From: Polaribacter sp.
GTDB lineage: Bacteria; Bacteroidota; Bacteroidia; Flavobacteriales; Flavobacteriaceae
Length of the DNA: 64,000 bases
Assembly (NCBI GenBank): GCA_023254055.1
Contig: JALQYN010000003.1
Span: forward strand, 1 to 64,000
Reading direction: 5' to 3'
Shown here: positions 1 through 64,000 of the stretch, piece by piece
Layout: every line of letters starts with the position of its first letter
Numbering within the stretch: the first letter of the stretch is position 1
Notes under the pieces: generated by a model
Told to the model about the DNA's origin: nothing
Databases searched by the model: none
What the model saw: only the letters and a program-made list of their open reading frames with translations
Made by a program: the position numbers and the translations under genes

Positions 1-584
1 ATCATAAATTATCGAATATTGTTTTTATGGGAATGGGAGAGCCTTTAATGAATTACAATAATGTGATAAAATCGATTGAAAAAATCACCTCTCCTGAAGG
101 ACTGGGTATGTCGCCAAAAAGAATTACAGTTTCTACATCTGGTGTTCCAAAAATTATTAAAAAAATGGCAGATGATGACGTAAAGTTCAACCTAGCCGTT
201 TCATTACATTCTGCGATTGATGAAGTGAGAACTTCAATCATGCCATTTAATGCTACATTTCCATTAAAAGACTTAAGAGAGTCATTAGAATATTGGTACA
301 AAAAAACACAACGAAGAATAACTTACGAATATGTTGTTTGGGGTGGAATTAACGACCGAAAAGAAGATATTGAAGCATTGATACAATTCTGTAGTTATGT
401 GCCTTGTAAAGTCAATTTAATCGAATACAATCCAATTGACGATGGAGAATTTCAACAAGCAAGTCCGCAAGCCATCAATAATTATATTTCAAATTTAGAA
501 ATGCACGGAATTGTGGTAAATGTGCGTCGTTCTAGAGGAAAAGATATCGATGCCGCATGTGGTCAATTAGCAAATAAGTCTTAA
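1..584 (+). CDS. rlmN: RlmN, 23S rRNA (adenine2503-C2)-methyltransferase, 3' part
   Basis: This is the C-terminal part of a radical-SAM enzyme that methylates C2 of A2503 in 23S rRNA (and A37 of some tRNAs in known homologues). The open frame enters at base 3 and reads NIVFMGMGEPLMN, the family's conserved GEP segment. The methyl-carrying C-terminal cysteine is in DAACGQLA near the end. The internal ATG at 27 is not the true start, because the frame is open to the window edge. The CxxxCxxC cluster that binds the iron-sulfur centre must lie upstream of the window. The stop at 582-584 is followed by a promoter for the next gene. Identification is confident; only the gene's extent is unknown. 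Confidence 0.95.
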   Translation, partial: HKLSNIVFMGMGEPLMNYNNVIKSIEKITSPEGLGMSPKRITVSTSGVPKIIKKMADDDVKFNLAVSLHSAIDEVRTSIMPFNATFPLKDLRESLEYWYKKTQRRITYEYVVWGGINDRKEDIEALIQFCSYVPCKVNLIEYNPIDDGEFQQASPQAINNYISNLEMHGIVVNVRRSRGKDIDAACGQLANKS

Positions 585-605
585 AAGAATTTCAACTAAT
601 TTTCT

Positions 606-613
606 TACTTTTG
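606..613 (+). promoter_or_regulatory. Putative -7 promoter element for the polyprenyl synthetase gene
   Basis: TACTTTTG is an exact match to the Bacteroidota -7 consensus TAnnTTTG. It lies 50 bases before the ATG at 664, just after rlmN. No well-spaced -33 TTG is seen, so the call rests on the -7 element and its position. Confidence 0.4.
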
Positions 614-626
614 AGTTTAAAACAAA

Positions 627-655
627 GACCTCTCGACTCTGCTCGAGGAGACATA
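627..655. repeat. Short GC-richer imperfect palindrome, probable dispersed repeat
   Basis: The segment ACCTCTCGACTCTGCTCGAG and the GAGACATA that follows it form an imperfect palindrome around two TCGA cores. It is visibly richer in GC than the flanks. It resembles the short palindromes scattered between genes in flavobacterial genomes. It sits between the promoter element and the start of the polyprenyl synthetase, so it would be in the mRNA leader. Only one copy is seen in this window, so the family assignment is an inference. Confidence 0.4.
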
Positions 656-663
656 AATAATTT

Positions 664-1641
664 ATGAAGCCTGTAGAGCAAATAAAACTTCCGATACAAA
701 ACGAAATGGAGCTTTTCGAAGAAAAGTTCAAAGCGTCGATGCTCACAAAAGTTCCGTTGTTAAACAGAATTACCTATTACATTGTTCGAAGAAAAGGAAA
801 GCAAATGCGTCCGATGTTTGTTTTTTTAGTGGCTAAAATGGTTTCTAATGGAGGATTTGATGAGCGAACGTATCGCGGAGCTTCTGTTGTAGAATTGATT
901 CATACAGCTACTTTGGTGCATGATGATGTGGTTGATGACAGCAATAGAAGAAGAGGGTTTTTCGCTGTAAATGCACTTTGGAAAAATAAAATTGCGGTGT
1001 TGGTTGGCGATTTTTTATTGTCTAAAGGATTGTTACTTTCTATTGATAATGAAGATTTTGATTTGCTAAAACTGATTTCAATTGCTGTTAAAGAAATGAG
1101 TGAAGGCGAATTATTACAAATAGAAAAGGCGCGTAAGTTAGATATTACAGAAGCAATTTATTTTGAAATCATTCGCCAAAAAACAGCAACCTTAATTGCT
1201 GCTTGTTGTGGAATTGGAGCAGCCTCTGTAGGAGCAAATCAAGAAACGGTACAGCAAATGCGGAAATTCGGAGAATACATCGGAATTGCCTTTCAAATTA
1301 AAGACGATTTATTTGATTATTCTGATGAAAAAATCGGTAAACCAACCGGAATTGATATCAAAGAGCAAAAAATGACATTGCCTTTAATTTATACTTTAAA
1401 CACCTGTTCAGAAAAAGATAAAAATTGGATTATCAATTCGGTAAAAAAACACAATAAAGAGAAGAAAAGAGTAAAAGAGGTCATCACTTTTGTAAAAGAA
1501 AATGGCGGAATTGAATACACGATTTCTAAAATGAACGACTATAAAAACAGAGCGTTGTCAATTCTAGAAAACTATCCAACTTCTCCTTATAAAGATTCTT
1601 TAATTAAAATGATTGATTACGTTGTTGAACGTAAAATATAA
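664..1641 (+). CDS. Polyprenyl diphosphate synthase (trans-isoprenyl transferase)
   Basis: The enzyme condenses isopentenyl diphosphate onto an allylic diphosphate to make the long prenyl chain used for quinone side chains. The first aspartate-rich motif is DDVVDD at residues 87-92 and the second is DDLFDY starting near residue 214. Both bind the Mg-diphosphate. GKQMRP near residue 45 is the usual substrate-binding segment. At 325 aa the length is normal for the IspB/HepT class. The chain length of the product cannot be read from the sequence. It is transcribed alone after rlmN and faces the GH3-like gene tail to tail. Confidence 0.9.
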   Translation: MKPVEQIKLPIQNEMELFEEKFKASMLTKVPLLNRITYYIVRRKGKQMRPMFVFLVAKMVSNGGFDERTYRGASVVELIHTATLVHDDVVDDSNRRRGFFAVNALWKNKIAVLVGDFLLSKGLLLSIDNEDFDLLKLISIAVKEMSEGELLQIEKARKLDITEAIYFEIIRQKTATLIAACCGIGAASVGANQETVQQMRKFGEYIGIAFQIKDDLFDYSDEKIGKPTGIDIKEQKMTLPLIYTLNTCSEKDKNWIINSVKKHNKEKKRVKEVITFVKENGGIEYTISKMNDYKNRALSILENYPTSPYKDSLIKMIDYVVERKI

Positions 1642-1697
1642 GACTACTTGTTACATTTTTTAAGCTTACTCGTTTTATAGATAAGTAAACTAATAAA

Positions 1698-1762
1698 ACA
1701 AAGTGTAAGTTTGGATTGTTTAGTTACCAAGAGCAAAAGTCGTTTATCTACTTGCACTTTGT
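1698..1762. other. Inverted repeat in the convergent intergenic region
   Basis: ACAAAGTGTAAGT (1698-1710) and ACTTGCACTTTGT (1750-1762) are complementary except for one mismatch and are separated by 39 bases. The right arm contains the last codons of the GH3-like gene. It may act as a transcript-end structure for one or both convergent genes. It lacks a clear adjacent T-tract, so it is not called a terminator. Confidence 0.3.
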
Positions 1763-3279
1763 TGGTTTACGGAAAGCTTCAGTAATTCCTCAACAAAATC
1801 TCTTGTATTAGACAATCTAGGCACTTTATGTTGTCCACCTAATTTTTGTTTTTGCTTTAGCCAATTGTAAAATAATCCTTTTTTTGCAACATGAATTTTC
1901 GGCAAAGCCAACGTCATGTCATGATATCTTTTGGCTTCATAGTCCGAATTGATTTCTTTTAAAGTTTGGTCTAAAACTTCCGTAAAGTATTCTAAATTAC
2001 TAGGTTCTTTTTTAAATTCAATAATCCATTCATGTCCGCCACCAGAATTTGTAGTCATAAAAACAGGTGCAACTGTATAATCTGTAATAATGGCTTTTGT
2101 TTTTTTACAGGCTACTTTCAGTGCTTCTTCTGCATTTTCAATAATCAATTCTTCTCCAAAAACATTGATAAAATGTTTTGTTCTTCCTGTAATTTTTATA
2201 CGATATGGATCTGTAGAGGTAAACTTTACCGTATCGCCAATTAAATACCTCCATAAACCACCATTTGTAGTAATTACCAATGCGTAATTCACATTCTTTT
2301 GAACTTCTGATAACGGAATTGCTTTCGAATTTTCTCCATCATAAGCATCCATTGGTATGAATTCATAGAAAATTCCGTAATCTAACATCAACAACAATTC
2401 AAATGAGTTGTCAATGTCTTGTAGACCAAAAAAACCTTCAGAAGCATTATACGTTTCGTAATATTTAAAGTCGGGTTTCGGTATCAGTTTTTTATATTGT
2501 TCCCTGTAAGGATTAAAATTGACGCCGCCATGAAAATAGACTTCCAAGTTTGGCCAAACTTCTAAAATATTGTCTTTACCGGTTTTTTCTAAAACTCTAT
2601 TTAATAATAATAACATCCAACTAGGAACACCCACTAAACTAGTAATATTTTCATGAATTGTTTCATCTACAATAGCATCCATTTTGCTTTCCCATTCGCT
2701 CATTAAAGCGGTTTCTAATTTTGGTGCAGAACTAAAATCAGCCCAAAAAGGAAGATTTTCTGTAATGATTGCAGACAAATCTCCGAAATATGAATTGTTG
2801 TCTTCGTAAATAGCAGTACTTCCCCCTAATTTCAATCCCTTTCCTGTAAATAACTGGGTGTCTTCATTGTTGTTAATGTACAAACACAACATGTCTTTTC
2901 CGGCTTTTAAATGACAATATTCTAGTGCTTCATCACTAACAGGAATAAATTTACTTTTTGCATTTGTAGTTCCACTAGATTTTGCAAACCATTTTATTGG
3001 AGTAGGCCAAAATATATTTTGCTCTCCTTTTCTGCAACGTTCTATAAGCGGTTCATAAGTTTCGTATTTCTGAATCGGAACAGCATTTGCAAAATCTGTA
3101 TAATCTCTAATGGATGAAAAATAATGCTCTTTACCAAATTCAGTATTCTTTGCGGTATTTAATAATTTAAACAACAATTCGTCTTGAACATCTAAAGGGT
3201 ACTTTAAAAACAACTCAATTTGATGCTTTCGTTTTTTTAAAAACCAAGAAATGATAGAGTTTACAAGTGGAAAAGACAT
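1744..3279 (-). CDS. GH3 family acyl-acid-amido-synthetase-like protein
   Basis: The 511-aa protein resembles the GH3 branch of the adenylate-forming superfamily. In plants this family conjugates amino acids to hormones such as auxin. Bacterial members are widespread in Bacteroidota and their substrates are unknown. The AMP-binding segment FAKSSGTTNAKSKFIPVS lies near residue 100. YYETYNASEGFFGLQD near residue 275 and the C-terminal LGGQHKVPRL are typical of the family. It is divergent from the DUF2797 gene and convergent with the polyprenyl synthetase. No signal peptide is seen, so it is probably cytoplasmic. Confidence 0.85.
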   Translation of the reverse strand: MSFPLVNSIISWFLKKRKHQIELFLKYPLDVQDELLFKLLNTAKNTEFGKEHYFSSIRDYTDFANAVPIQKYETYEPLIERCRKGEQNIFWPTPIKWFAKSSGTTNAKSKFIPVSDEALEYCHLKAGKDMLCLYINNNEDTQLFTGKGLKLGGSTAIYEDNNSYFGDLSAIITENLPFWADFSSAPKLETALMSEWESKMDAIVDETIHENITSLVGVPSWMLLLLNRVLEKTGKDNILEVWPNLEVYFHGGVNFNPYREQYKKLIPKPDFKYYETYNASEGFFGLQDIDNSFELLLMLDYGIFYEFIPMDAYDGENSKAIPLSEVQKNVNYALVITTNGGLWRYLIGDTVKFTSTDPYRIKITGRTKHFINVFGEELIIENAEEALKVACKKTKAIITDYTVAPVFMTTNSGGGHEWIIEFKKEPSNLEYFTEVLDQTLKEINSDYEAKRYHDMTLALPKIHVAKKGLFYNWLKQKQKLGGQHKVPRLSNTRDFVEELLKLSVNQQSASR

Positions 3280-3391
3280 TGGGTTAGTTGTTGTTTTAAT
3301 TTATGATTACAAAATTCTTAAAACTTGCTTTTTTATAGTAAGTTTGTTTGTTGTCAATTTTCAACGGAGTTAAAAATACTAAAAATAGTTT

Positions 3392-4183
3392 ATGCAATAT
3401 CAAGGAGTCCTAAAAAAAATGCCTACCGAGAATTTAGAAACGGTTCAATATTACTTAGAATTGAATGATGACTTCTTGCATATGAATCAATTGCTCGGGA
3501 AAACTATTGAAATGACGTTTGTAAAATACGAATGCTTAAACTGTCATTTAAACAAAGAAATTTACCGACAAGGATTTTGTAAAAGCTGTTTTTTTGAAAT
3601 ACCAACTGCCGGTGATTGGATTATGAGACCCGAATTGAGTACAGCACATTTAGGGATTGAAGACCGAGATTTAGCCTATGAAAAGCAAGTGCAATTAAAA
3701 CCTCATATTGTGTATTTGGCAAATTCTAGCAATGTAAAAGTTGGTGTTACTAGAAAACAACAAGTTCCAACACGTTGGATAGATCAAGGAGCTCATGAAG
3801 CGATTGAAATTGTTGAAGTACCCAATAGATATTTAGCCGGAATTACAGAGGTTGCTTTAAAAGAACATGTTGCCGACAAAACCAATTGGCGCAAGATGTT
3901 GAAGAATGATGTTGAAGATGAAAATTTAGTAGAATGGAGAAATAAGTTAGCACAATATATACCTGCGGAAGCAAAAGAATACTTTATTGAAAACAATACG
4001 GAAACCAATCTGAATTTCCCAGTGGATAAATATCCATTAAAACCTAAAAGTTTAAACTTGGTAAAAGAGAGTTCTTATTCGGGTAAGTTAGTCGGCATAA
4101 AAGGGCAGTATTTAATTTTTGAAGACGAAACCGTTTTTAATGTGAGAGCAAATGAAGGTTTGGTGGTAACAATTGAAATTTAG
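3392..4183 (+). CDS. DUF2797 domain protein with zinc-finger-like cysteines
   Basis: The 263-aa protein matches the DUF2797 family, whose function is not established. A putative metal-binding site C48-x2-C51-x11-C63-x2-C66 (motifs CLNC and CKSC) lies near the N-terminus. It is followed by a segment VKVGVTRKQQVPTRWIDQGA. That segment recalls GIY-YIG-like folds, which is an inference. The product looks soluble. The small membrane-protein gene begins 2 bases after its stop and the nitrilase overlaps that gene, so the three probably share a transcript. Confidence 0.8.
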   Translation: MQYQGVLKKMPTENLETVQYYLELNDDFLHMNQLLGKTIEMTFVKYECLNCHLNKEIYRQGFCKSCFFEIPTAGDWIMRPELSTAHLGIEDRDLAYEKQVQLKPHIVYLANSSNVKVGVTRKQQVPTRWIDQGAHEAIEIVEVPNRYLAGITEVALKEHVADKTNWRKMLKNDVEDENLVEWRNKLAQYIPAEAKEYFIENNTETNLNFPVDKYPLKPKSLNLVKESSYSGKLVGIKGQYLIFEDETVFNVRANEGLVVTIEI

Positions 4184-61454: not shown

Positions 61455-62711
61455 TTAGAAACCAAAAGCTTCTCTTACTTTATCTACATAATCTAATTTT
61501 TCCCAGGTAAACGTTTCAACTTCTTGAGAAACAGTTTCTCCCATTGGGTTTGTAAATGTAACAGTCTTCACTTCCGGAGTTCTTCCCATATGTCCATAAG
61601 CAGCAGTTTCAGAGTAAATCGGCGTTCTCAATTTTAAACGTTGCTCAATAAAATATGGACGCATATCAAAAATAGATTCTACAATTTTACTAATTTCTCC
61701 ATCTGTTAAATTTAAAGTTGATGTACCATAAGTTTCAACGTTAATACTTGTTGGTTTTGCAACTCCAATTGCATAAGAAACTTGTACTAAAACTTCTTTA
61801 CAAACTCCTGCAGCAACTAAGTTTTTGGCTATATGTCTTGTTGCATACGCTCCAGATCTGTCAACTTTAGATGGGTCTTTTCCAGAAAATGCTCCACCAC
61901 CGTGAGCCCCTTTTCCACCATACGTATCAACAATAATTTTACGACCAGTTAATCCAGTATCTCCATGTGGTCCACCAATAACAAATGTTCCTGTTGGATT
62001 GATATGATAGGTAATTTTATCGTTAAATAAAGCTTGAATATTTTCAGGTAATTTTGCTATTACTCTCGGAATTAAAATGTTTACAATGTCAGATTTGATT
62101 TTTTCTAACATTACTTGATCACTTTCATCAAAATCATCGTGCTGTGTAGACACAACAATGGCATCAATTCTTTGCGGAATGTTATCATCAGAATACTCAA
62201 TAGTAACTTGAGATTTAGCATCAGGACGTAAATAAGTAATCTCTTTGTTTTCTCGTCTTAATTCAGCCAATTCAATTAGCAATCGATGCGATAACTCTAA
62301 TGCCAATGGCATATAGTTTTCAGTTTCATCAGTAGCATAACCAAACATCATTCCTTGATCTCCTGCACCTTGTTCTTCTTTGTTAGCTCTATCTACTCCT
62401 TGATTAATATCTGGAGATTGCTCATGAATTGCAGAGAAAACACCACATGAACTTCCGTCAAACATGTATTCGCTTTTTGTATAGCCAATCTTGTTGATGA
62501 CATCACGCGCAATTTTTTGAACATCTAAATAGGTGTTAGATTTTACTTCTCCAGCTAAAACTACTTGTCCCGTTGTTACCAGTGTTTCGCAGGCAACTTT
62601 TGATGCTGAATCGAAAGCTAAAAAATTATCTATTAGGGCGTCTGAAATTTGATCAGCTACTTTATCTGGATGTCCTTCTGAAACAGACTCAGAAGTAAAT
62701 AAATATGACAT
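61455..62711 (-). CDS. metK: MetK, S-adenosylmethionine synthase
   Basis: The 418-aa enzyme makes SAM from methionine and ATP. Motifs are [30 protein letters not shown] and [19 protein letters not shown]. The length is slightly above the E. coli form, with an insertion in the central domain as in other Bacteroidota. It is divergent from metX. A SAM-II-like aptamer lies in its leader (62779-62830), so its product probably represses it. Confidence 0.97.
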
Positions 62712-62778
62712 ATTTTTATTTTTTAATGTTATGGAAAAATAAAAAAATTGCTTGGAAGCTAAAAAGAAGTAGAAAATT

Positions 62779-62830
62779 ACTGCTTTAGCTTTTTTTATAG
62801 AGGTTGCAATCAGTTCAAATTTTTCCTCGA
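62779..62830 (-). promoter_or_regulatory. SAM-II-like riboswitch aptamer upstream of metK
   Basis: Read on the minus strand it contains GAGG then AATTTGAACTGATTGCAA then CCTC, and AAAAAGCTAAAGCAGT. The known SAM-II core has the same order: a P1 stem, a loop with UU..AAC..UUGCAA and a 3' GCUAAA. P1 is GAGG (62828-62825) with CCTC (62803-62800). A pseudoknot pairs ACTG (62814-62811) with CAGT (62782-62779). The conserved GCTAAA is 62789-62784. The aptamer begins a few bases after a -7 match at 62842-62849, so it is at the very 5' end of the metK leader. Confidence 0.7.
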
Positions 62831-62841
62831 ATTATCGATTG

Positions 62842-62849
62842 CAAATGTA
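62842..62849 (-). promoter_or_regulatory. Putative -7 element of metK
   Basis: The minus strand reads TACATTTG, an exact TAnnTTTG match. It implies a leader of about 125 bases that contains the SAM-II-like element, longer than almost all other leaders here. Confidence 0.55.
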
Positions 62850-62922
62850 CAGCTAAAAACATTACAAAAAAATAAAATGAAAAAAAGTTCAAATAAATTT
62901 GGTTATTAACTTTTTCTAACTG

Positions 62923-62930
62923 AATATTTG
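62923..62930 (+). promoter_or_regulatory. Possible -7 element for the SAM-I/metX transcript
   Basis: AATATTTG matches TAnnTTTG at 7 of 8 positions. TTG at 62899-62901 lies 21 bases upstream, a plausible -33 element. TAAATTTG (62894-62901) is an alternative exact match. Either would start the RNA before the riboswitch. Confidence 0.4.
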
Positions 62931-62960
62931 TGCTCAGAAAGTTCATCACTTATTGACAAT

Positions 62961-63081
62961 GTTATCAAGAAAGGCGGAGGGATTAGACCCTATGAAGCCT
63001 TAGCAACCCTTTACACTTAGTAAAGAAGGTGCTAAATTCTACTTAATTTCAGATTCATTTATCAGAAATTGGATAGATAAC
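62961..63081 (+). promoter_or_regulatory. SAM-I (S-box) riboswitch upstream of metX
   Basis: The closing stem P1 is GTTATC (62961-62966) with GATAAC (63076-63081). Inside are the S-box signatures GGCGGAGGGATTAGACCCTA, TGAAGCCTTAGCAACC and AAGGTGCTAAATTCTAC. This matches the four-way junction of SAM-I riboswitches, which turn off methionine genes when SAM is high. It lies 116 bases before metX. A hairpin follows at 63090-63109. Confidence 0.95.
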
Positions 63082-63089
63082 TAAAAAAA

Positions 63090-63109
63090 CAATTACTGCC
63101 GAGTAATTG
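63090..63109 (+). other. Hairpin after the SAM-I aptamer, possible expression platform
   Basis: CAATTACT and AGTAATTG pair over 8 bp around GCCG, 8 bases after P1. The following T-run is broken (TAATAATTCTTT), so a classical terminator is uncertain. It may influence termination or translation. Confidence 0.4.
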
Positions 63110-63197
63110 TAATAATTCTTTATAACATTTTTCTAGTAAGTTCGTCAAATTATTGACGCATTTGACTTTTTGGTTTGTAATAAATCAAAAGAATATC

Positions 63198-64000
63198 ATG
63201 GAGTTGAGGCAACTACATATTAAAAATTTCAGTACAGAAAAAGGCACTCAGTATGATACTATTCAATTGAGTTATCAATTATTTGGGAAAGAGTTGGGAA
63301 CTCCTCCTGTAGTATTAGTCAATCATGCATTAACAGGGAATTCTAATGTTGCTGGCAAAGACGGTTGGTGGAAAGATTTAATTGGAGAAAAAAAGGCAAT
63401 TAACACCCATGAATATACAGTTTTAGCATTTAATATTCCCGGAAATGGCTTTGATGGTTTCTTAATTGAAGACTATAAAAGTTTTATAGCAAGAGATATC
63501 GCAAAGCTGTTTTTAATTGGGTTACAAAAATTGAATATTGACCAACTTTTTTGCCTGATTGGTGGGTCTCTTGGAGGCGGAATAGGATGGGAAATGTTGG
63601 TATTACATCCATCCATCACAAAGCATTTTATTCCCATAGCTACCGATTGGAAATCTACGGATTGGTTGATTGCAAATTGTCAAATACAAGAACAGTTTTT
63701 GAAAAATTCTAGCAATCCAGTACATGATGCACGTATGCATGCCATGTTGTGCTATCGAACTCCAGCATCATTTAAAGAACGTTTTTATCGTTCTAAAAAT
63801 GAAGAGTTACAAATTTTTAATGTAGAGAGTTGGTTGTTGCATCATGGAAAAAAATTGCAAGAACGATTTCAGTTATCTGCCTATAAATTAATGAATCAAT
63901 TGCTAAAAACTATTGATGTTACTAATAATGGAAAACTTGCAATTGAAGTGTTAGATACTATTACTGCAGATATACACATTGTTGGAGTAGATTCTGATTT
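63198..64000 (+). CDS. metX: MetX-like homoserine O-acetyltransferase, 5' part
   Basis: The open frame from the ATG at 63198 runs 267 codons to the window edge without a stop, so the 3' part is missing. It is an alpha/beta-hydrolase-fold acyltransferase of the MetX type that acetylates homoserine in methionine synthesis. VNHALTGNSN gives the oxyanion loop and IGGSLGGGIGWEML the nucleophile Ser, both typical of MetX. ARMHAMLCYRTPASF matches the family's lid region. The upstream SAM-I riboswitch supports a methionine role. The His and Asp of the triad would lie beyond the window. Confidence 0.9.
   Translation, partial: MELRQLHIKNFSTEKGTQYDTIQLSYQLFGKELGTPPVVLVNHALTGNSNVAGKDGWWKDLIGEKKAINTHEYTVLAFNIPGNGFDGFLIEDYKSFIARDIAKLFLIGLQKLNIDQLFCLIGGSLGGGIGWEMLVLHPSITKHFIPIATDWKSTDWLIANCQIQEQFLKNSSNPVHDARMHAMLCYRTPASFKERFYRSKNEELQIFNVESWLLHHGKKLQERFQLSAYKLMNQLLKTIDVTNNGKLAIEVLDTITADIHIVGVDSD

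Follow-up and report, generated by a model that had tools for sequence, protein, structure and literature searches.

Two unrelated SAM riboswitch classes before divergent metK and metX-like genes in a Polaribacter genome, and their distribution in the Flavobacteriaceae

The accessible text of the survey by Barrick and Breaker (2007; PMC2258182) reports no species with both the SAM-I (S-box) and the SAM-II class of S-adenosylmethionine (SAM) riboswitches. In S. meliloti, SAM-II serves two methionine genes, metA and metZ, for which hiding of the Shine-Dalgarno (SD) sequence or a terminator has been predicted, while SAM-II elements with long loops were listed by Weinberg et al. (2010) for Bacteroidetes and marine samples (accessible parts of PMC9373788 and PMC2864571, respectively). 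The terms bacteroid, flavobacter and divergent are absent from the main text of an article from 2025 that deals with contiguous riboswitches (PMC12452182), and the accessible part of PMC12121620 holds nothing on co-occurrence. No later description of a Bacteroidota genome with both classes was found in the literature covered, which consisted of main texts, for the most part outside subscription journals.

Here, we describe a locus of Polaribacter sp. in which a SAM-I and a SAM-II aptamer lie back to back before divergent genes. The window, i.e., the whole stretch of DNA analyzed, comprises 64,000 nucleotides and belongs to an assembly of 2.25 Mb in 99 contigs that is 85.5% complete. The locus shares with a reported tandem riboswitch the proximity of two SAM classes; however, the tandem is described as one riboswitch, whereas here the aptamers occupy opposite strands and two genes are served. 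The SAM-II class is common to this locus and to the S. meliloti system as given in the accessible text on the latter, but the methionine genes are served here by another class. The SAM-I element resembles the described S-box family (RF00162) in its full-length model match and its location before methionine genes, and would differ from it in that the competing partner pairs with the 5´ rather than the 3´ strand of P1 and, in relatives, reaches the start codon. Similarly, the SAM-II element agrees with the long-loop form RF01726 in its full length, P1, loop, 3´ strand motif and location before a SAM-pathway gene, but there is mostly no SD sequence to hide, and the leader holds a stretch that is nearly antisense to the SAM-binding loop.

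Judging from sequence comparison, we consider it probable that these are two independent SAM-off switches on divergent transcripts, with SAM-II acting on metK and SAM-I on a metX-thrA fusion together with its downstream genes. SAM-II would turn down SAM synthesis, and SAM-I would turn down methionine synthesis. Without SAM, the 5´ strand of the aptamer in each leader would be captured by a stretch of that leader (the anti-aptamer); with SAM bound, the aptamer would fold and release the anti-aptamer. In many relatives, the stretch released in the SAM-I leader could then base-pair at the start codon of the gene that follows, which would stop translation, while in the window a hairpin followed by a U-rich tract could instead end transcription. 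The anti-aptamer platforms, proposed from comparison and folding, are likely the new part of this scheme.

The divergent genes and their aptamers

Within the final 2.5 kb of the window, metK and a MetX-like gene diverge, 486 bases apart. The S-adenosylmethionine synthetase gene metK (61455..62711, minus strand) was identified by a profile search with TIGR01034 (515.7 bits vs. a cut-off of 309.4), and in the best segment it was 99% identical to an uncultured Polaribacter metK and 91% identical to that of Polaribacter sp. Hel1_85. The plus-strand gene, called metX in a preliminary description of this DNA, is indeed MetX-like, but it scored under the curated equivalog cut-off (139.8 vs. 500 for the in-window part, 179.3 for the whole) and proved to be fused to aspartokinase-homoserine dehydrogenase. 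Its metX part occupies 63198..64000 (plus strand), and the fusion extends past the window end; the entire protein of 1131 residues (L304, positions 299-3694, beginning at 63198 of the window) comprises a MetX-like domain, an aspartokinase and a homoserine dehydrogenase. Downstream follow, in order, a Cys/Met-metabolism PLP enzyme, a homocysteine S-methyltransferase domain, a pterin-binding domain, part of a B12-dependent methionine synthase and MTHFR/metF, all of which, from their order, would share the transcript of the fusion. Given the gene content behind each aptamer, SAM-I stands at the head of a unit for methionine synthesis, and SAM-II at the head of SAM synthesis. The second half of the methionine synthase is split over two frames (L304, 5926-6531 and 6625-8601), which represents either a broken gene or an assembly error.

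In line with the preliminary description, a SAM-I aptamer was found on the plus strand at 62959-63083 (RF00162; 75.5 bits vs. a cut-off of 44.4, E 6.6e-16), where the fusion gene starts 114 bases downstream of it, and a SAM-II aptamer on the minus strand before metK at 62834-62775 (RF01726, long-loop form; 63.2 bits vs. a cut-off of 44, E 8.2e-10). Both covariance-model matches are full length (model positions 1-108 and 1-60, respectively) and no further copy of either aptamer was found in the assembly, the remaining Rfam match over the whole window at gathering thresholds being one tRNA. The aptamers are separated by 124 bp, close to the roughly 130 bases first estimated.

For the minus-strand element, the preliminary description had named RF00521 (SAM_alpha), and a score of this model below threshold as evidence against the element. 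RF00521 gave no match at the metK leader at E up to 10 and, genome-wide, three weak sub-threshold matches elsewhere (best 19.8 bits vs. a cut-off of 36). This family was therefore rejected; the assignment to the SAM-II class was right, through RF01726 rather than the model named. The missing RF00521 match would also fit a chance or convergent SAM-II look-alike. Nevertheless, RF01726 matched at an E value of 8e-10 in the window and was found in 235 of 249 family genomes (228 over the cut-off). Further, the element precedes metK at 177 of the 184 loci inspected (176 recognized by motif and one by eye; of 226 loci, four that could not be oriented and 38 placed but not fetched were excluded) and keeps its P1 with double changes, and we regard the look-alike as refuted.

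The covariation in relatives that had been suggested as a check was observed in helices of both classes. Pairs 1–4 of the SAM-II P1 are standard in 175 of 175 relatives (176 aptamers, one of which was not parsed), with double changes from AT to GC in seven and from GC to AT in six. For SAM-I, 5 of 25 consensus pairs show double changes among 30 sequences, and most pairs are invariant. Across 19 aligned aptamers, the loop and 3´ pseudoknot strands of SAM-II hardly vary, which leaves nothing from which covariation could be read. In one genome (G059), the SAM-II match stops early, probably through an insertion.

Distribution and arrangement of the two classes

SAM-I matches were present in 199 of the 249 family genomes, a sub-threshold third match in G014 being excluded; 30 of the 50 genomes without SAM-I are not listed by name. 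Both classes occur in 193 genomes, SAM-II alone in 42, SAM-I alone in six and neither in eight, with some of the genomes incomplete. The one-class-per-species picture of 2007 no longer holds. These counts likewise do not support the expectation in the preliminary description that such a pair would be unusual, while its proposal of two independent sensors agrees with the finding of unrelated classes on separate divergent transcripts.

A phylum-wide draw of 296 genomes yielded SAM-I in 247, SAM-II in 45 (41 over the cut-off; 30 of the 45 in Flavobacteriaceae) and both in 42. Among 80 named metK loci from many Bacteroidota groups, SAM-II stands before metK at 44, and at four (L224, L226, L227 and L236) there is also a divergent SAM-I within 250 bp of it. 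SAM-II occurs outside the Flavobacteriaceae as well. In an Emticicia bin (L256, 2322-2426), a SAM-I/IV aptamer (RF01725) heads metK in place of SAM-II.

Seven SAM-II loci lie before genes other than metK; the five genomes that carry them lack a SAM-I match and are 66–93% complete. Two of these loci precede metY (L020 in genome G004, with TIGR01326 over its cut-off, and L107 in G239, by eye), and one precedes a metH-like start (L142 in G055). In a few SAM-I-less genomes, SAM-II thus stands before genes served by SAM-I elsewhere in the family. In two others (G052 and G081), also small and without a SAM-I match, SAM-II lies before queF, the preQ1 synthase gene (L105, 429-836; L106, 380-802), with TIGR03139 barely over its cut-off; we know of no SAM sensor on a queuosine gene. 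The last two loci, again in G004 and G239, which are small and lack a SAM-I match, lie before a DUF6580 protein (PF20221, hydrophobic by eye; L104, 353-901, and L108, 46-594), which might take part in SAM or methionine traffic.

In the 193 genomes with both classes, the nearest pair is divergent at up to 150 bp in 15, at 151-400 bp in 12, at 401-2500 bp in 13 and at more than 2.5 kb in 66. SAM-I lies downstream of SAM-II on the same strand at 1355-1524 bp in 37 genomes, at 1601-3500 bp in five and further away in 14; the classes are on different contigs in 29, and two genomes have another arrangement. Divergent pairs within 400 bp (27 of 193) carry 25 genus labels. The 15 tight gaps measure 124, 125 (three), 126 (three), 127 (three), 128, 138 (two), 140 and 150 bp, so that 11 of them, under 11 genus labels, fall within 124-128 bp. 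In the 37 genomes (e.g., L080, L081 and L103), SAM-I lies directly behind metK in the same direction, and read-through from metK would reach it.

In the window, each aptamer is preceded by a promoter-like box of the form TAnnTTTG, which we take to be the Bacteroidota promoter motif. The -7-like box of the metK transcript is TACATTTG (62842..62849, minus strand). TAnnTTTG occurs at most 30 nt upstream of SAM-II at 168 of 176 metK loci, compared to 4.9 expected from shuffles and, with a box this near, the metK transcript probably starts close to the aptamer. The putative SAM-I promoter consists of a -7-like box, AATATTTG (62923..62930, plus strand), whose position is kept in relatives (32-37 nt ahead of the aptamer at 25 of 27 divergent loci), and a -33-like TTTGG (62898..62902, plus strand) found at the same position in most of 15 aligned spacers. 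The -7-like box was present within 60 nt at 50 of 67 SAM-I loci (8.5 expected), and TTTG or TTGG at -70 to -45 at 22 of the 27 divergent loci, the latter being a raw count. The promoters would lie back to back in the spacer, and the transcripts would not overlap. A conserved AAAGTTCA...TTA.TGA, also seen in the aligned spacers, follows the SAM-I promoter box and precedes the aptamer (62939-62958 in the window), where the transcript presumably begins.

The recurrent spacing of 124-128 bp and the fixed positions of both promoter boxes raise the question of whether the tight back-to-back layout is itself functional, i.e., whether a regulator or supercoiling at a shared promoter region of 125 bp couples the transcripts on top of the riboswitches. 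Shared ancestry, however, accounts for the spacing equally well, and the sole conserved block seen between the -7 boxes in the spacer alignment is the -33-like TTTGG. Moreover, the layout is kept in just 15 of the 193 genomes, and 66 are divergent at more than 2.5 kb, so closeness is not required. We consider such coupling unlikely, and prefer the reading of two independent switches, in which the sensors adjoin because metK and methionine genes are often neighbors in the family and not through any need for RNA contact.

The metK leader

Bacteroidota mostly do not use Shine-Dalgarno sequences, and the metK leaders agree with this: an SD-like 4-mer (GGAG, GAGG or AGGA) was detected within 20 nt before the AUG in only 9 of 176, a count that covers the metK side and not the SAM-I genes. 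SD hiding was rejected for metK on this basis.

Both duplex prediction and the minimum free energy (MFE) fold of the ligand-free leader, computed as for all leaders here without pseudoknots, point to a putative anti-aptamer in the metK leader (GCAAUUUUUUUAUUUUUCC; 62733..62751, minus strand), whose predicted target comprises loop L1 of SAM-II and the inner end of P1 (GGAAAAAUUUGAACUGAUUGC; 62806..62826, minus strand). In the window, GGAAAAAU and the loop sequence GAUUGC are predicted to pair with GCAAUUUUUUUAUUUUUCC at -13.5 kcal/mol; none of 40 dinucleotide shuffles formed so strong a duplex, and 15% of 40 leaders from other genomes did. In the same MFE structure, a hairpin, H1 (62758..62789, minus strand), is predicted to sequester the 3´ strand of the SAM-II pseudoknot (GCUAAAG..).

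Across the family, 171 of 176 leaders were used for duplex, folding and start-pairing counts, those under 40 nt having been dropped. The SAM-II loop paired with its own leader at a mean of -15.2 kcal/mol, compared to -13.4 kcal/mol for the leaders of other genomes and -9.2 kcal/mol for dinucleotide shuffles (n = 171; p 1e-13 and 2e-29, respectively, p values here and below ignoring the relatedness of genomes and hence being too small). Own-leader duplexes beat 95% of the shuffles in 129 of 171 genomes, and at least five loop–leader pairs were predicted in the free leader in 148 of 171. Pairing of the 3´ strand with its own leader was also stronger than in shuffles (p 1.3e-16, 171 genomes). Further, loop and leader sequences change together: a GATTTG loop is accompanied by CAAATC in the leader in 86 of 137 cases and an AATTTG loop in 2 of 38 (Fisher p 4e-11), the leaders of these 38 holding GCAAT[CT] in 21 cases and neither motif in 15.

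Neither SD hiding nor occlusion of the start region accounts for the step from a freed leader to the OFF state of metK. Over the family, the accessibility of the start region did not differ between the free and the aptamer-locked folds (0.564 vs. 0.555, p 0.10; 0.63 vs. 0.53 for the window alone), and the pairing of metK leaders with the start codon did not go beyond shuffles (p 0.65). Leader refolding across the start codon was accordingly rejected as a general rule for metK. At the metK start of the window itself there is an 11-bp A/U match, equaled in strength by 1 of 30 shuffles, which we provisionally take as an effect of composition. The metK leaders are rich in C and poor in G, with C exceeding G in 152 of 165, and Rho-dependent termination is no more than a weak lead here, since any stretch complementary to a purine-rich loop will be rich in pyrimidines.

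The SAM-I leader

Behind the SAM-I aptamer, the window folds into a 9-bp hairpin, ACAAUUACU GCCG AGUAAUUGU (63089..63110, plus strand). Most of the listed relatives have a hairpin of varying sequence at the same place, with a mean stem of 6.5 bp compared to 5.3 bp in shuffles (67 loci). After the hairpin, the window and many relatives carry UUCUU.UAACAUUUUUCU, the UUCUU.UAACAU part of which is complementary to the aptamer's own AUGUUAUCAAGAA.

The predicted SAM-I anti-aptamer (UUCUUUAUAACAU; 63116..63128, plus strand) is complementary at 12 of 13 bases to 62959..62971 (plus strand), i.e., to the 5´ strand of P1 followed by AAGAA, its predicted target in the ligand-free MFE fold and as a duplex. 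This duplex reaches -8.9 kcal/mol in the window, and none of 40 shuffles was as strong. Over 87 loci, the 5´ strand paired with its own downstream 80 nt at -9.0 kcal/mol, compared to -8.4 kcal/mol for other loci (p 0.006) and -5.4 kcal/mol for shuffles (p 1e-14), and 59 of the 87 beat 95% of the shuffles. The motif TTCTT..AAC occurs at 50 of the 87 loci, where 2.1 are expected, and the second base of P1 changes together with its counterpart in the copy (33:5 vs. 2:14). The 3´ strand of P1 was rejected as the competing strand, its downstream complements being shorter than in shuffles.

The released stretch would also have a second partner in relatives. The sequence CAUUUUUCUA (63126..63135, plus strand) is complementary there to the start-codon region UAGAAAAAUG, a partner that is absent at the metX start of the window. 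Start pairing was counted in 40 loci, 27 of 67 distinct SAM-I loci being without a usable start; L034 was not oriented, and the pairs L048/L078, L058/L092 and L061/L079 were each taken once. A pairing of at least 8 bp reaching the AUG was found in 24 of these 40; in 22, the match spans 9 to 12 bp and extends into the AUG. Altered forms that still match occur in G054, G098, G126 and G177, and L060 has a longer form. As a set, the 40 loci showed a mean pairing of 8.2 bp compared to 5.8 bp in shuffles (p 2e-6); taken singly, just 13 of them beat 95% of the shuffles. In 20 further loci, where SAM-I lies behind metK on the same strand, start pairing did not go beyond shuffles (6.9 vs. 6.0 bp, p 0.07; p 0.57 for the energy). 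At the metX start of the window, CAUUUUUCUA is kept without a match to the start, the best pairing being 7 bp elsewhere and weaker than in shuffles. Given these last two results, start-codon pairing was rejected as a general feature of all SAM-I loci.

That failure in the 20 same-strand loci, together with the hairpin and the U-rich sequence behind the aptamer (9 bp in the window, and longer stems than in shuffles over the 67 loci), would be expected if the SAM-I platform worked by intrinsic termination alone, with the start complementarity arising from A-rich starts and U-rich terminator tails in AT-rich genomes. We regard this as possible but rather unlikely. The matches of 9 to 12 bp into the AUG exceed composition-matched shuffles as a set, and forms that changed in some loci still match; furthermore, the hairpin overlaps neither the aptamer nor the anti-aptamer, so that control by SAM is not obvious.

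In the relatives of the window (L224-L227), a metY-like protein starts at the place of the metX start, as judged by eye, with AAGAAAAAUG, AGAAAAAUG or UAGAAAAAUG. metY thus appears to have been lost here in the lineage of the window, along with the start-codon partner. In the nearest relative (L224), the metY-like frame, about 190 bases behind SAM-I, ends after 97 residues, representing a decayed gene or an assembly error. The metX start without the partner known from relatives, at a place where the nearest sequenced relatives have a metY-like start, might also mean that one aptamer is a relic and that the other alone senses SAM. However, both aptamers score far over their cut-offs at full length and share the invariant alignment columns of their relatives, which makes a relic very unlikely.

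Extending the reading of two independent switches to the whole family, we propose, tentatively and with more doubt than confidence, that SAM-II would serve SAM synthesis and SAM-I methionine synthesis, both as SD-free platforms in which an anti-aptamer captures the 5´ strand of the aptamer and the strand freed by SAM binding clamps the start codon, a pairing found for SAM-I in some relatives. Some of the streamlined members that lack SAM-I would hand their methionine genes to SAM-II. If true, the SAM homeostasis of a whole bacterial family would rest on two unrelated sensors with fixed jobs, and it would become testable how riboswitches control translation in bacteria mostly without SD use.

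Finally, MFE folding predicts a second hairpin downstream of the anti-aptamer and ahead of the start codon (63137..63164, plus strand). A hairpin was also recognized by eye at this place in relatives, with a changing stem and similar flanks (AAGUA..., CAUUUGACUUUUGG).
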